Under the pieces are notes generated by a model. The model worked only from the letters and a program-made list of their open reading frames with translations, was not told where the DNA came from and made no database searches. Positions 11,188 through 40,154 of a stretch of 64,000 nucleotides of DNA are shown here, piece by piece. The number at the start of each line of letters is the position of its first letter. The stretch's first letter is position 1. Origin of the DNA: Nitrosopumilus piranensis (GTDB lineage: Archaea; Thermoproteota; Nitrososphaeria; Nitrososphaerales; Nitrosopumilaceae); assembly GCF_000875775.1 (NCBI RefSeq), contig NZ_CP010868.1:1499707-1563706 (forward strand), given 5' to 3'. The position numbers and the translations under genes were made by a program.

Positions 11188-11610
11188 CTATACTTTTTGA
11201 TTAAATGGGGAAATTAAAGAATCAACCATGCCTTTGTGAATGTTGACAAAAGTACTTGAATTCTCATTCCATGTCTTGATGTTTTGCTTCATTGCATCAA
11301 TTGATACAACAGACATCTTGCTTTGAACATCCAGTGAACGATTCACCTTTTCTGCTGAATCATGTACAAAACTAATTGATGCTTCTGGGAGATTTGATTT
11401 AATTCCTGCTTTAGTTGCAAATTCTCTCTGAATTTCAAGTGTAGATGATGCTGCATTACTCAATGATCTTACATATTCCTGAAACAGATTGGTAGTTGCT
11501 TGATGCAGTTGTGGAACTGATTTTTCTATGTTTGAATAGAATGTTTCCATGCCATCTTTCCATACAGAATAGAGATCTTTGTGATTGCTTATATTTTCAA
11601 TTTTACTCAT
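11188..11610 (-). CDS. Helical phasin-like protein, 140 residues
   Basis: Almost wholly alpha-helical soluble protein without cysteines: SVWKDGMETFYSNIEKSVP, then QEYVRSLSNAASSTLEIQRE, then SIDAMKQNIKTWNENSSTF. The size, helix pattern and A/S/N/Q-rich amphipathic faces resemble phasins and PhaE-like proteins that coat polyhydroxyalkanoate granules, which some ammonia-oxidising archaea make; the match is weak and rests on pattern only. The strongest feature is upstream: a perfect Shine-Dalgarno 7 bases before the ATG, preceded by micro-ORF 11645-11812, the same arrangement as the S-layer gene. It is probably a very abundant protein. Confidence 0.7.
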   Translation of the reverse strand: MSKIENISNHKDLYSVWKDGMETFYSNIEKSVPQLHQATTNLFQEYVRSLSNAASSTLEIQREFATKAGIKSNLPEASISFVHDSAEKVNRSLDVQSKMSVVSIDAMKQNIKTWNENSSTFVNIHKGMVDSLISPFNQKV

Positions 11611-11617
11611 ATTTTTG

Positions 11618-11629
11618 CACCTCCTCCTA
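11618..11629 (-). promoter_or_regulatory. Strong Shine-Dalgarno site TAGGAGGAGGTG
   Basis: On the minus strand TAGGAGGAGGTG ends 7 bases before the ATG at 11610, near-perfectly complementary to an archaeal 16S rRNA 3' tail. Most genes in this window are leaderless or weakly led, so this is exceptional. The identical 12-mer occurs at 39646-39657 before the S-layer gene. Confidence 0.8.
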
Positions 11630-11644
11630 TTTGATTAAGTGTGA

Positions 11645-11812
11645 TTACTTGAGATCCTCAAGCACGTCTTCATCTTTGAATATCCATGACAAACCTAGCA
11701 TGTCAATAGTAGAAATCTCCTGGCTAAAACTTGGAGCGTTTTTGGCATCACCAGTTTTTAGCACAGACAAACTGTCTGTTGTTTTCTTTGCAATTTGTAT
11801 GAGTTGACTCAT
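11645..11812 (-). CDS. Leader micro-ORF A (55 residues), paralogue of the S-layer leader ORF
   Basis: The frame starts with ATG at 11812 and stops with TAA at 11645. The peptide begins MSQLIQIAKKTTDSLSV, contains TGDAKNAPSF, then IDMLGLSWIFKDEDV, and ends EDLK. It shares M.Q, SLS, DAKNA, GLSWIF and the following acidic tail with the 53-residue frame at 39664-39825, in the same order and spacing, so this is a conserved coding sequence rather than a chance frame. A TATA-like TTAATAAT lies about 26 bases upstream, making the peptide the first, leaderless cistron. The stop is 34 bases before the phasin-like ATG with the strong Shine-Dalgarno in between. The role is unknown; a leader peptide or small regulator are the main options. 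Confidence 0.8.
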   Translation of the reverse strand: MSQLIQIAKKTTDSLSVLKTGDAKNAPSFSQEISTIDMLGLSWIFKDEDVLEDLK

Positions 11813-34488: not shown

Positions 34489-37400
34489 TTAGTTTACATC
34501 AATTGTAAACTCTACAGTAGGACTCAAGGCAATAGGATTAGTCAAACTAGTCCAAACAAAAACTGTTGCAGTGTATTTTCCAGATTTTTCAGGTATCCAA
34601 GAGACTGCGGGAGAGAAGTTTTGATTAACCTCAAGGCTTCCAGTAATCCAAGACAAAGATTGTACAGAATTGTTAGAGTCTTGAATTTGTACAAGATAGG
34701 TAAATGGCTGAGTTGCAATGTTTTTGTTAGAAATTCCTGTAGTTATCTGAATTTGCTGATCAGCCTTAACTTGTCCAATAACATTTCCAAATGAATCCAC
34801 AACTCTAGGAGTTCCCACAGGTACTCGTTCTAATGGTGGAATAACAGGACCCACAACAGTACTAGAGATAATTTTTAACTCATCTGCCTTTGCGTATGGC
34901 TTTGGCAGTGTATTGTCTTCATATTTTGCAGTAACAAAATCACCTTCACTTACACGCAACCTATGACCAGATGACTGATCTTTGGAAGAAAATGTAACAT
35001 GACCCTCAAAGATTCCTGTTGCCTGACCAGTCTCAGTCACTGTAAGGTCAATTCCACCAAGATCAGAATCAGACCACACATCTATAGTGAATGTGTTTAC
35101 TGTGTTAGGATTGAGATTCATATCAGGATCTATGACACGTATAATTCCGTTTCCATTGGCAGATGTTGCACCTTGAACCCATTCAACATTACCTATGTTC
35201 CATTTGATTAATGCAGATGCAGTCAAAGTTTGTCTGTCTGAATATTGGAAGGATACAGTTAATCCATCATCATTCTTTGATTCTAAGAATCCATTTTTAG
35301 GACCACCATTACTTTTTGGTTCGGTTCTTGGAGTGGTATCAATTCCATCAATGCTACCAGTTCTAGGATTTCCATCAGCATCATGTTTGAACCCAGTTAG
35401 TATTACTTCGCCGACAAAAATTCCAGTGTTAAATCCAGTCTCAGTTAGTTTGTATTGAGACAATTTGTTTGAGCGAGTAGAAATTTTAATTTCGTTATCA
35501 GATTTACTTCCTATCTCGTCTATTTTATTTTCATTAAAATTATGATCAGGTGCAATAATTGTGATGTAGACTTTTTCAGTCCACGAGTATACTTTCTTGT
35601 CCAATGCTATCTGAGATTGGAAGTTTGATGTTGAGAATCTTATCTCTACTTTCTGATCATTTTTTCCAACAAAATCGGAGCCTGGTGTTCCCCAATCGGT
35701 GTATGTGACTTTGATGTTCTCGCCTCTATCAACTTGCTTTTTATTTATTTCAGATGGGATTTTTATCGATGTCTGAAATATTCCAGTAGATTCTCCTGTT
35801 TCACGTAGTCCAACAGGTCGTGGATCAAATATTTTTCCATTGTTTGTCATAGCACCACCCAATGCACCCATAGAGACCTTGGCATCATCAGACTTCCACT
35901 CCAATACATCAAGTGAGTATGTCTCTGCTTTTCTGGAATCAAAATTCAAGTCAGGATCAATTAATGTGATTAATGCGTCGCGGCCAACAATGTAAGATTG
36001 GGTATCAGATTGGAGTACACCCATCCTGAGATCAAATGCAGCAGAATCAGTCACAGTTCTAGATGAGCCAGAGGCATCAGCCTGATCAGCATATTCTACA
36101 GTAATAATATCACCTTGCAAGACACAATAGCTTCCAGAAGAAGGCTTTGCATCAAATCTTGATAAAACACCGGTTTTTGATTTATCTAATTTTTCAAATC
36201 CGGATTCCAAAGTAGTTGGACATTTTGTAGAAGATGGACCATCGACATACTTGATTGGTAAACTAAACTGGAATACTCCTGAGCTAGGAGATGTTTCTGG
36301 AATTGGTCCAAACTCTCTTGTAATACCACTTTTTACATTCTTACCAACAGTAATTACTCCTACTTTTGCTTCCTCTCCACCTGCAGTTGCCAAAACAATG
36401 GTTGAGGAACCTCTAGTAACCATTACTTTGATTGGCCCATTTGTTGTTCCGCCAATGTTTTGGGATAATTTGTCTTCTCCATTAGGAGATAGATTGTAAT
36501 CAGCATCATGGATTCTGATATCAAGCATTGTATCTCTTGGTCCAATCTCTTCTCCAGAGTCAATTGCTTTGAAATCTCCATTTTTAGTAATCGCAGTTAG
36601 GTGGAAAGGGAATATGGAATTGCTATCAGGAATTGTAGAAGAAGTTTTTCCTGATTCATAAAAGTTAGAAACTGCACCTATTGGTACTGGGTATGTTGTT
36701 CTATCAAGCTTGACAATTCCGCTTGTTGCACCAACTGATGCGCTTGCAGATGTTATTGCTGCCTGACTTGATTGCCCTCTAAAGTCATAGTATACTGCTC
36801 CAATGTCAACACCAGATGTAGATTTTACAACACCGCCATCATTTCTTGAACAGTATTGAGAAGGAATTTTGAAATCGCCTTTGAACTCACCTGTCTTTTT
36901 TCCTGTCTCAACTAAAGTAAATCCAGTTGAACTTAATCCATCTAGTCCAGAGATTGCAGAACATGATTTACCATTGTGCAAAATGTTGGATTTTAACCAT
37001 CGTTCATCATCAAAAGTAATCTCTAACAATCTACCAAATGGCTGATTGTTCTCTCTAAATCCTAGATTTGCAAGTCCTACCGTATCAACTGCAGGATCAT
37101 TTGGGAATTTTGTAGCATCAACTACAGTATAGATATCAACAAGATCAGAATTAGTATTCAAATCCTTATCAAGCAAGTTTACACCAACAGTATCACCAGG
37201 CTTGAATGTCTTGACTGACAGTACTACTATTCCCATATGAGACAATACGTCTTGTTGATCAGATATTGTAGTCTGTACTCCATCAGAGCCCAAGTCATTG
37301 TAACTTATTCGCGGTGCTTCGTTTCCTTTGAGTTCATCAATGATTATGAATACAGGTTCATCATCAATTGGAAGAATTTGCTCATACGTTTTAGAATCAA

Positions 37401-39648
37401 AGATGTTGAGTTGGTTTAGCATAATATATTCAAGACTGCCTCTGAACTTTCCTGCGCTGTTTGATAGTTCTTCCATCTCTACACGGACAATTTGATTTGC
37501 TACTCTGTCACTTTTTGCAGTGCCGGCATTTTTTAGACCATATGAGAAAAAGTCAGCTACGATTGGTTTTGTCTCTGTTCCAATGTTTTGTATTTTAGGA
37601 TATGCAAACATCAAGCCAATTTTTTCATTTCCTGAAAAAGATGATGAAAACAAGTTAGAGTGAAGTGTTTGCGGACTAGAAACTTGCTGTGTAGAGTTGA
37701 GATTAATCAGATTCTGAACAGTTGTATCAGATGCAATCTTGATTGCAGTAATGCCAGAAGTTGGATTTCCTGAAGAGTCAAGAATAGATGATGTTGTAAT
37801 TAGAAGATAGATATCGACACTACTAATTTCAGTGCCAAGTGAACGTATATCAAAATTAAACATGTTTAGCCCTTTGAATTTCTTGGATGAATCAAATGGG
37901 TTGTTTATAGAAGAATAAAGTTCAGATAGATTTGTTTTCAGATCAATTACTAGTGCATCAGAATCAGTGTTAGATGAAGGATCTATTCTTGCCCTATCAC
38001 TGTGCTTTTCTACCAAGACACTAGTACCAGTACCCAAAACTGTTTCTGAAAGTGTGAACTGTCCAGAGGTTGTAGGGGTTAGAGTATATCCATTTAGAAA
38101 TGATGCAGTTGTTTTGGTGTTTGATTCTGTTCCACTTTCACCTAAGGTGTATGGGTCTCCCGTACTTAATGCTGGAATTGCCTTGTAAGATGGATTAAAC
38201 AAATCAAGATCTTCTTTTTCTAAATTATTCTTGTTTGCATCAGAATCTATCAATATCACAGGCATCTCTTCACCAGAATTCCACTCGTTTCCCTTCAAAG
38301 ATTCATCAAGAGAAAGTGTGCCCTTGCCAAATCCAATTAAAAGTGTGGTTGATTTTTTATTATATTCTATTGATGCAGATGTTCCTCTTTGTGCATTGTC
38401 AGTTGTAAGTAAAACAGAGTCATTGTTTGCATCAGTAGTTGTAAAGACTGCACTGTTTGGTCCAGTTTCAGTTATTGTTACAGGATATTTTCCTGTAGCA
38501 ATAGAGCCACCACTGGTTGCAATTTGGGATATGTCTAATTCTCCATCACCATTTGTTTGGGAATTACTATTATCTTGAATTGTAAGAACATTTGATTGTC
38601 CTTGTACGTTTGGATTTATCTTGAGAACTCCATTATCTTTGAACATCATGGAACTGAGTTTTGATGCTAGATTTACAGCACCTGTAGTTCCATCTGAATC
38701 ATTTTTGCCAGAATCTTCATAGAGCAGATAATATGTAGAAGGGCCTGATGGCAAGGTTCCAAATGACCAAGAATCCTCATCGGTAGGATCTATGTTTAAG
38801 CTAAGATCTGTAATTTTGAGATTAACGTCTGAAGATCTAGGATATGAGGTTCTATCTAGTTCAAAATTTACAAGTTTGTCTGCTGAATCAAATGTAAGTG
38901 TAGTTTGTTGTGGACCGCCACCACGGTTGTATTGAACTACTACATTTCCGCCTTTAGAAAAATCATAAAGTTGGATAAATGGCCAAAGGTCTTGTGATGC
39001 CAATCCAACTTGTCCCAGTTTGACAGAACCACCGCCAGAGTTTATCGTCTTTGCCTGTCTAACTACATTAATGGAATTTTTTGTGTATGGGGAAGACAAG
39101 GAACAGTCTTGGGAAATCTCTTTTGGTGTAGAACCGTTTTCGCCACCAATACCAGTACCACTAACAGGTATTGCAATGCCAACAGTCTCAGTTACAGAGA
39201 ATCCAAGAACAGATGAGCTTGGAGTACAAAGAGTTCCAAAGTCAAGACCCTTTCCTGTCAGGCCAACTGTACTGTCTGCAATCTGGGCTTGTGCTCTATC
39301 TGCAAAATAACCATACCAATTGCCATCAACTGCTTGAACCATTCGAAGATTTTTGCCATTGACTGTAACATCTGGTTCGCCTATTGCTTTTCCAGTATCA
39401 CCAATATTTTGATCACGAATTACGACTTCAATTACTTGCGGACCTGAAATTCTATTTTGAGATTGAGGATTGTTTGCTGAAACATAGAGATTAGTTGTTT
39501 GCGCATCAGCTGTGAAAAGATTTCCAAAAGATACACTTCCTGTAAAAATTAGAATAGATAGTGCAATTGCAGATAAGATTCTTTGGCGAGACATTTTGGT
39601 AACAATTTCCTTGGTTTTAATGGTATGAAAGGATTGTGTACTTTTCAC
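34489..39648 (-). CDS. S-layer protein with repeated Ig-like modules, about 1.7 kresidues
   Basis: Giant secreted protein that most likely forms the cell's surface lattice. A Sec signal is seen in MSRQRILSAIALSILIFTGS (Met19 of the open frame) with a cleavage region TADAQ-TTNLY. The mature part is acidic and rich in D/N/S/T/G, built of many beta-sandwich modules carrying paired motifs: a 'DPD.N' turn (IDPDLNF, IDPDMNLNPN, LDKDLNTN) and 'ETG..TGIF.G' (LTETGFNTGIFVGE, VTETGQATGIFEGH, LRETGESTGIFQTS). There is no C-terminal membrane helix. The first in-frame start is GTG at 39648 inside a strong Shine-Dalgarno, the next is ATG at 39594. The leader micro-ORF lies directly upstream. Confidence 0.9.
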   Translation of the reverse strand: MKSTQSFHTIKTKEIVTKMSRQRILSAIALSILIFTGSVSFGNLFTADAQTTNLYVSANNPQSQNRISGPQVIEVVIRDQNIGDTGKAIGEPDVTVNGKNLRMVQAVDGNWYGYFADRAQAQIADSTVGLTGKGLDFGTLCTPSSSVLGFSVTETVGIAIPVSGTGIGGENGSTPKEISQDCSLSSPYTKNSINVVRQAKTINSGGGSVKLGQVGLASQDLWPFIQLYDFSKGGNVVVQYNRGGGPQQTTLTFDSADKLVNFELDRTSYPRSSDVNLKITDLSLNIDPTDEDSWSFGTLPSGPSTYYLLYEDSGKNDSDGTTGAVNLASKLSSMMFKDNGVLKINPNVQGQSNVLTIQDNSNSQTNGDGELDISQIATSGGSIATGKYPVTITETGPNSAVFTTTDANNDSVLLTTDNAQRGTSASIEYNKKSTTLLIGFGKGTLSLDESLKGNEWNSGEEMPVILIDSDANKNNLEKEDLDLFNPSYKAIPALSTGDPYTLGESGTESNTKTTASFLNGYTLTPTTSGQFTLSETVLGTGTSVLVEKHSDRARIDPSSNTDSDALVIDLKTNLSELYSSINNPFDSSKKFKGLNMFNFDIRSLGTEISSVDIYLLITTSSILDSSGNPTSGITAIKIASDTTVQNLINLNSTQQVSSPQTLHSNLFSSSFSGNEKIGLMFAYPKIQNIGTETKPIVADFFSYGLKNAGTAKSDRVANQIVRVEMEELSNSAGKFRGSLEYIMLNQLNIFDSKTYEQILPIDDEPVFIIIDELKGNEAPRISYNDLGSDGVQTTISDQQDVLSHMGIVVLSVKTFKPGDTVGVNLLDKDLNTNSDLVDIYTVVDATKFPNDPAVDTVGLANLGFRENNQPFGRLLEITFDDERWLKSNILHNGKSCSAISGLDGLSSTGFTLVETGKKTGEFKGDFKIPSQYCSRNDGGVVKSTSGVDIGAVYYDFRGQSSQAAITSASASVGATSGIVKLDRTTYPVPIGAVSNFYESGKTSSTIPDSNSIFPFHLTAITKNGDFKAIDSGEEIGPRDTMLDIRIHDADYNLSPNGEDKLSQNIGGTTNGPIKVMVTRGSSTIVLATAGGEEAKVGVITVGKNVKSGITREFGPIPETSPSSGVFQFSLPIKYVDGPSSTKCPTTLESGFEKLDKSKTGVLSRFDAKPSSGSYCVLQGDIITVEYADQADASGSSRTVTDSAAFDLRMGVLQSDTQSYIVGRDALITLIDPDLNFDSRKAETYSLDVLEWKSDDAKVSMGALGGAMTNNGKIFDPRPVGLRETGESTGIFQTSIKIPSEINKKQVDRGENIKVTYTDWGTPGSDFVGKNDQKVEIRFSTSNFQSQIALDKKVYSWTEKVYITIIAPDHNFNENKIDEIGSKSDNEIKISTRSNKLSQYKLTETGFNTGIFVGEVILTGFKHDADGNPRTGSIDGIDTTPRTEPKSNGGPKNGFLESKNDDGLTVSFQYSDRQTLTASALIKWNIGNVEWVQGATSANGNGIIRVIDPDMNLNPNTVNTFTIDVWSDSDLGGIDLTVTETGQATGIFEGHVTFSSKDQSSGHRLRVSEGDFVTAKYEDNTLPKPYAKADELKIISSTVVGPVIPPLERVPVGTPRVVDSFGNVIGQVKADQQIQITTGISNKNIATQPFTYLVQIQDSNNSVQSLSWITGSLEVNQNFSPAVSWIPEKSGKYTATVFVWTSLTNPIALSPTVEFTIDVN

Positions 39649-39657
39649 CTCCTCCTA
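39646..39657 (-). promoter_or_regulatory. Strong Shine-Dalgarno site of the S-layer gene
   Basis: TAGGAGGAGGTG on the minus strand, identical to the site before the phasin-like gene. Its last three bases are the GTG at 39648. No start codon lies at the usual 5-10 bases beyond it, and the likely signal-peptide ATG is 51 bases downstream, so which start it serves is unclear. Confidence 0.7.
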
Positions 39658-39663
39658 GTTGGT

Positions 39664-39825
39664 TTAAGCGTAATTTGTCAAATCATCATCTAAGAATATC
39701 CAGGACAATCCGGCCAATTCTGTCCAGTTGCAGGACGTACTGGTTGGAAGAGCATTTTTGGCATCACTTCCAACCAGAGATAATGACTGGTCTGGTCTTT
39801 GGATGTTTAGTGTAACTTGTTTCAT
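39664..39825 (-). CDS. Leader micro-ORF B (53 residues) upstream of the S-layer gene
   Basis: The frame runs from ATG at 39825 to TAA at 39664. The peptide starts MKQVTLNIQRPDQSLSL, contains VGSDAKNALPTS, then WTELAGLSWIFLDDDL and ends TNYA. It is homologous to the 55-residue frame at 11645-11812 (shared SLS, DAKNA, GLSWIF plus acidic residues). A TATA box (TTATAAG) sits about 27 bases upstream, making it the leaderless first cistron of the S-layer mRNA. The stop is 6 bases before the strong Shine-Dalgarno, and it is in the same reading frame as the S-layer gene, separated by TAA and TAG. It may be a leader peptide, translational coupling device or small regulator. Confidence 0.82.
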   Translation of the reverse strand: MKQVTLNIQRPDQSLSLVGSDAKNALPTSTSCNWTELAGLSWIFLDDDLTNYA

Positions 39826-39846: not shown

Positions 39847-39857
39847 TCTTATAACCC
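39847..39857 (-). promoter_or_regulatory. TATA box of the S-layer leader ORF
   Basis: On the minus strand GGGTTATAAGA is centred about 27 bases before the ATG at 39825. This is one of the best TATA matches in the window and fits the very high expression expected of an S-layer gene. Confidence 0.6.
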
Positions 39858-39960
39858 ACTAGAGAATTGTGCAAAATTAATTTTAAGATAATTAGTTGAC
39901 TTTGTTCAGTCTAAAATCAACTAATGAACAATTTATCCTAAATCTATTTTAAGTTGGATT

Positions 39961-40053: not shown

Positions 40054-40154
40054 TGGCGCCGGGAGGGAGATTTGAACTCCCGTTCCCTTGCGAGAACGCG
40101 CTTTATGGTTAACAATTTCCAGGCGCGCGCCCTACCAGGCTAGGCGACCCCGGC
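40054..40154 (-). tRNA. tRNA-Ser (anticodon GGA) with a 14-base intron
   Basis: Acceptor GCCGGGG pairs with TCCCGGC (one G-U), discriminator G, and CCA is encoded (40056-40054). The D arm is GCC/GGC, the anticodon stem CGCGC/GCGCG, the long variable arm GTTC...GAAC (the serine hallmark), and the T arm GGGAG-TTCAAAT-CTCCC. The region between the anticodon-stem strands is 21 bases instead of 7; removing 14 bases (40116-40103) after position 37 leaves loop CTGGAAA with anticodon GGA. The canonical 37/38 intron site suits cleavage by EndA. Confidence 0.93.

Follow-up and report, generated by a model that had tools for sequence, protein, structure and literature searches.

A predicted leaderless micro-gene with a covarying hairpin inside its coding sequence, a candidate leader cassette of Nitrosopumilaceae

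The window, a stretch of 64,000 nucleotides from the genome of Nitrosopumilus piranensis, contains two related micro-ORFs on its reverse strand. The first, a long-form member of the GLSWIF family at 39664–39825 (−), has 53 codons and is predicted to be leaderless. Its TATA box, TTATAAG at 39848–39854 (−), starts 29 nt before the ATG, and upstream of the box lies a candidate operator, the P3-class inverted repeat TTAGTTGA-N17-TCAACTAA at 39892–39924 (−). The frame closes with TAA and runs into ACCAACTAGGAGGAGGTG; the Shine-Dalgarno sequence (SD) TAGGAGGAGGTG occupies 39646–39657 (−), where no start codon stands at a working distance. The second micro-ORF, of 55 codons at 11645–11812 (−), is followed by the same TAGGAGGAGGTG at 11618–11629 (−), and 7 nt further on begins the ATG of a phasin-like protein of 140 aa (11188–11610 (−)). 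The label “phasin-like” denotes paralogy to the gene adjoining phaC and phaE, not a family match. Both the 53-codon frame, with its TATA box, TAA and SD, and the likeness of the second frame, which shares M.Q, SLS, DAKNA, GLSWIF and the acidic tail, are as the initial annotation described them.

A tblastn search of the organism's own genome recovered this pair (E 2e-4) together with a third copy at G000:C1:1498400-1498552, which lies 1.2 kb outside the window, is 53% identical to the first micro-ORF and is followed on its 3' side by CCAACTAGGAGGAGGTG and then by a secreted protein of ~200 aa. AGGAGGAGGTG occurs only four times in the 1.71-Mb genome, and three of these occurrences are the leaders; the fourth was rejected as a further leader, being antisense to a coding repeat and lacking a hairpin. 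We also noted a tRNA gene at 40057–40154 (−) of the window (L239:1825-1922), recognized by Rfam and missed by ARAGORN, possibly with an intron in the anticodon region.

Beyond the first micro-ORF lies an S-layer-like gene (34489–39594 (−)), one of three such paralogues in the genome. It had been taken for the S-layer gene of the organism, but it begins MSRQRILSAIALSIL in place of the canonical N-terminus, and the canonical-type gene (MNNEIGRKITSLTLMTIM... N-terminus) is the paralogue at G000:C1:26388, which has no micro-ORF. Nor is the SD confirmed as leading the window gene: the sole plausible start, the ATG at 39594, was placed by alignment of the N-terminus to orthologues, and the SD ends 51 nt before it. 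Just 5' of this ATG stands CACAATCCTTTCATACCATTAAAA (39615–39638 (−)), a promoter-like element common to orthologues that matches CACAATGCTTTCATACTATGAAAA before the G036 and G002 genes. Among close orthologues of the window gene in eight other species the leader was found directly upstream in none (0/8), so that the S-layer context is not conserved; the G061 orthologue has another type of micro-ORF 204 nt upstream.

The order in G036 is leader, SD, a gene for a 199-aa secreted protein, promoter-like element and S-layer gene. The window sequence matches that of G036 through the leader as far as GGTGAAAAG, where it passes directly into the promoter-like element, the secreted-protein gene being missing; a paralogue of the missing gene stands 40 kb away behind a leader of its own, the third copy. 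Because G036 has the secreted-protein gene between the leader and the S-layer promoter, the leader in the window appears stranded. It was probably orphaned by deletion or relocation of the secreted-protein gene, leaving the S-layer gene with its own promoter, a gene-loss reading drawn from one relative, G036. An RNA start downstream of the micro-ORF is plausible at this locus. Control of the S-layer gene, a role at first proposed for the leader, is not supported: the copy is specific to this genome, no start codon stands at a working distance from its SD, and the gene has a promoter-like element of its own downstream of that SD.

Relatives of the micro-ORF are widespread. Family matches were present in 55 of 56 good-quality Nitrosopumilus genomes, at 1–17 copies each, when tblastn was combined with the C-terminal profile A2 (the family alignment A1 was too diverse for collection scans), and in an order-wide sample at E ≤ 0.01 they fell in eight genera, all Nitrosopumilaceae. 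The C-terminal motif is GL[ST]W[IV]F with acidic residues, and its wider form G[LI][ST]W[IVL][FI] ends nearly all members. A long form of ~45–60 aa, the window type, can be told from a short form of 23–25 aa (e.g., MSNQDNQNKPSWEEVQGLSWIFYED and MQDNNNQSSWEEAIGLSWLISDE). Many short forms are stand-alone genes of 23–25 codons with their own promoters, and stand-alone copies have neither the hairpin described below nor an SD-led gene, which disproves the expectation that members always precede an SD-led gene. In nine close pairs with synonymous changes, pN/pS over whole ORFs was 0.11–0.46, indicating that the amino-acid sequence is under purifying selection; the pooled value for the cores, 0.16, is biased because the cores had been picked by the motif. 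The search suggested by the initial annotation, for homologues under purifying selection, thus found them across Nitrosopumilaceae.

The micro-ORFs matched no family in Pfam and NCBIfam at E ≤ 1, literature searches on the GLSWIF microprotein family returned nothing, and viral contigs contained no relatives of the long form. AlphaFold2 modelled the window peptide with a mean pLDDT of 60.6 and a 5-residue helix as its sole structure. A match in a plastocyanin-like gene (L004/L006) was taken as chance, the protein similarity being weak. At L065:2739-2810(−) (G000:C1:1058238-1058309) a 23-aa short form is immediately followed by a second micro-ORF (MSSFNSICSPNCWCKLEKS...) with a C-x3-C-W-C motif, and this two-peptide operon, seen also in L047, L052, L087 and others, ends in a hairpin and a T-run. 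The Trp codon position of the second peptide is TAG in N. piranensis, L090 and L095, where the peptide looks broken.

The initial annotation was right about the micro-ORF and its paralogue but overlooked an RNA hairpin within them. An inverted repeat, in the window CTGGTTGGAAG-TGATGCCAAAAATGCT-CTTCCAACCAG, codes for the conserved peptide block SDAKNAL / SEAKNPLS. Its structure has 11 pairs, then a position that is variably paired or mismatched, a G-C pair, a bulged A, two pairs and the loop CCAAAAA. At 39740–39777 (−), in the first micro-ORF, 14/14 pairs are formed; the hairpin of the second leader, at 11724–11761 (−), forms 12/14 with compensatory arm sequences unlike those of the first. RNAalifold predicted no structure on the unsorted set, because stand-alone copies break it, and the hairpin was therefore tested by pair counts. 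In a gapless 54-nt alignment of peptide-pattern copies, with the stand-alone P2 copies included, 77% of cells were paired versus 69% in shuffles. With the P2 copies left out and three inner pairs added, 26 peptide-chosen sequences gave 85.7% versus 72.1%, and 13 of the 14 pairs had changed on both sides. A set of 34 sequences, which takes in eight held-out matches themselves chosen by the covariance model, had double-sided changes in 14/14 pairs and 66 double-changed cells versus 21.3 in shuffles.

Such counts are inflated by the kinship of the sequences, and shuffle counts are not probabilities; a codon null and slid controls were added for that reason. Slid positions were 34–50% paired versus 87% at the hairpin (34 sequences). 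Random synonymous codons drawn with the usage of the window formed 8.8 of the 14 pairs (sd 0.24) versus 12.2 observed (z = 14). The codon preceding AAA AAY, which codes for Ala, Val, Ser, Thr or Pro, ended in C in 33/34 sequences against 9% expected, and even the amino acids track the pairing, V-G tending to accompany L-P and V-E to accompany L-S (GGA/TCC versus GAA/TTC). Judged from these alignments, the covariation exceeds what the coding sequence explains, as expected of a cis-regulatory RNA hairpin; the comparisons show selection on the peptide and on the hairpin each, and the amino-acid choice that follows RNA structure in this block is, at the sequence level, a clean case of dual coding.

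The covariance model, built from the peptide-chosen sequences, had exactly three matches in the N. piranensis genome, namely the three leaders. Held-out copies in other genera were matched at E 2e-13 to 7e-4, nearly all of them in micro-ORFs with P1-type operators 5' of phasin or small secreted-protein genes. Weak matches in other families (G060, G202 and G210; E 0.003–0.02) had no micro-ORF and were taken as chance. In the stand-alone P2 copies the peptide block is kept and the stem is lost (8.1 versus 12.0 pairs, p = 4.5e-5), a natural control that ties hairpin and leader role to each other. At E ≤ 1, Rfam 15 had no relevant match to either leader of the window (the best scored 22.4 bits on the opposite strand, the family cut-off being 44) and none to eight loci at gathering score. 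At 11645–11668 (−) of the window and in the phasin leaders of most species, the final codons ahead of the stop would fold into another small hairpin (CTTGAGGAxxTCAAG).

In the phasin clade of 11188–11610, 9/9 loci have a leader, a strong GGAGG-type SD and a micro-ORF ending 33–34 nt before the ATG, while in the other phasin clade, found beside phaC, phaE and an AbrB-like gene (Pfam), 0/21 loci scanned had one, some of the automatic start codons there being wrong. Other long-form leaders stand 5' of signal-peptide proteins, and some hairpin copies (L118, L120 and L230) are without a downstream gene nearby. Certain leaders close in ..KRRCI in place of the GLSWIF end, yet they keep the hairpin and the SD, which is contained in their last codons (AGG AGG TGT). 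The distance from stop to start is 4–9 nt in the KRRCI types, 21–28 nt in several secreted-protein leaders, 33–34 nt in the phasin type and 69 nt in front of the S-layer paralogue of the window. The predicted order of operator, TATA box, leaderless micro-ORF with hairpin, SD and gene is strict before one phasin clade and recurrent before secreted proteins; the loci compared show the hairpin to be associated with leaders and the spacing to SD and gene to be conserved in the phasin clade. The proposal that conserved peptide and conserved architecture together signify function is borne out by the Nitrosopumilaceae homologues, their pN/pS and the constancy of leader, SD and spacing in that clade.

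TATA-like boxes lie ~27–30 nt 5' of the micro-ORF ATG, and the micro-ORFs are therefore expected to be leaderless or nearly so. Further 5' of the box we found three recurring motifs: P1, RGCATRCCACAAA; P2, around ACGAATCATTCGT; and P3, around TCAACYRGTTR, the type of the window copies. The spacing from the P1 operator to the ATG is 41–42 nt in nearly all P1 leaders. Sites of RGCATRCCACAAA with fixed spacing (e.g., L098:541, L129:539 and L241) numbered ~50 in 22 genomes of the genus versus ~5 in the reversed control, and they form a candidate regulon of a putative regulator. The palindrome ACGAATCATTCGT stands directly 5' of the TATA box in nearly all 25-aa micro-genes (L021, L066, L070, L110 and others), a second candidate regulon. 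One peptide type can be found behind differing operators, and leaders that are nearly identical can stand before different genes, as in G107, where a phasin follows at L110 and an unrelated secreted protein at L109; the leader cassette has therefore been reused. In L104:2924-5483 (G094:C4), two nearly identical leaders in tandem precede two different secreted-protein genes, a recent cassette duplication.

We propose, with a probability of about 0.5, that this is a leader cassette of Nitrosopumilaceae in which hairpin occupancy controls the SD-led second cistron in cis and the microprotein has a second role in trans. The leaderless micro-ORF, with the hairpin coded within it, would begin at or beside the RNA 5' end, and the strong SD would lead a second cistron for a phasin, a small secreted protein or a surface protein. 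The hairpin would be a binding site, most likely of an RNA-binding protein, whose occupancy may decide both the passage of the ribosome started at the leaderless AUG and the translation of the downstream SD-led cistron; the microprotein, through its GLSWIF-acidic tail, may act in trans. The operator of phage MS2 coat protein is likewise one hairpin, in which a conserved loop, there of 4 nt, sits two pairs above a bulged A. The leader hairpin has the same shape, but its loop is of 7 nt (CCAAAAA) and host and context differ, so that the resemblance is one of shape only. Of the roles the initial annotation offered, a cis element gains from the covarying hairpin and a self-acting small protein from the stand-alone copies, while S-layer control as such is not supported.

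A leaderless first and an SD-led second cistron fit the coexistence of both initiation modes in archaea (PMC7531240). Termination-reinitiation coupling is known in archaea (PMC6728339) and falls off beyond ~30 nt (PMC12548453). The coupled pairs of these studies share with the leaders a short upstream cistron and an SD before the second. KRRCI-type leaders, with the SD within the upstream ORF and only a few nt between its stop and the following ATG, would be within reach of coupling, whereas the 33–34 nt of the phasin leaders lie at or beyond its range, so that coupling is not clearly the mechanism there; a conserved hairpin within the first ORF does not belong to the coupling mechanism. By architecture the cassette can also be likened to sRNA154 of Methanosarcina (PMC11456600), in that one RNA combines a leaderless micro-ORF with a regulatory RNA part. 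sRNA154 is a regulatory sRNA, whereas the leader micro-ORF is linked in cis to varied protein genes and contains the hairpin within its coding sequence. An attenuator in which the 5' arm of the hairpin masks the SD was rejected, since own pairs were no better than swapped pairs (permutation p = 0.70) and no mutually exclusive pairing was supported.

The wide distribution of the family in the genus, its frequent stand-alone genes with their own promoters, the purifying selection and the motif common to leader and stand-alone forms would also agree with a microprotein that is itself the product that matters, with a partner-binding GLSWIF and co-transcription with envelope or granule genes, the hairpin tuning mRNA stability or protein ratio. 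We consider this unlikely, though not negligibly so, as the constraint that the hairpin puts on codons, and on amino acids too (VG..LP versus VE..LS), exceeds the needs of a stability tweak, and the KRRCI leaders dispense with the GLSWIF end and not with hairpin and SD. If the hairpin were instead a small riboswitch, a metabolite would bind an aptamer of bulged A and CCAAAAA loop and control the second cistron; the near-invariant loop and bulge, the covarying stems and the restricted set of linked genes give it that look. Such a switch is improbable given a single 38-nt hairpin within a translated ORF, with no Rfam match and no supported alternative pairing to the SD region.

Short ORFs upstream of a controlled gene are familiar from bacterial arrest and attenuator leaders such as TnaC, the Erm leaders and the trp leader. 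Stalling of the ribosome at the Trp/Ile/Phe-acidic end, exposing the SD, would suit the short leaders, with their invariant Trp close to the stop and the strong SD past it. In contrast to the bacterial leaders, however, neither an alternative pairing nor a terminator nor a run of codons was found; the distance from motif to stop varies widely, from ~5 to 14 codons, and the same motif ends stand-alone genes that have no downstream cistron and is missing from KRRCI leaders, so that nascent-peptide arrest seems quite improbable. The resemblance of the hairpin arms CTGGTTGA/TCAACCAG to the P3 repeat of the window raises the idea that the inverted repeat acts at the DNA level, as the operator of a regulator whose other site is that upstream repeat. 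We give this very little credence: in a sequence-specific operator the sequence should be preserved, whereas here it changes and the complementarity stays (e.g., 11724–11761), G-U pairs occur often, and copies under P1 promoters retain the hairpin.

Extending the cassette reading to a family-wide regulon is more tentative, and we regard it as possible but doubtful. A coding stretch read twice would yield a microprotein acting in trans and a hairpin for one putative RNA-binding protein, by which envelope and storage-granule genes would be set together at translation, the cassette having been transferred among genes and operators in the course of evolution.

Among marine ammonia oxidisers, archaea of the Nitrosopumilus type belong to the commonest; their post-transcriptional control is poorly known. 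The microprotein family occurs in nearly every Nitrosopumilus genome and yet has no match in the protein-family libraries searched. The element is compact and has a precise consensus in its covariance model, operator classes and fixed spacings. Taken together, micro-gene and hairpin appear to make up a hitherto undescribed element that controls genes of storage granules and of the cell surface.
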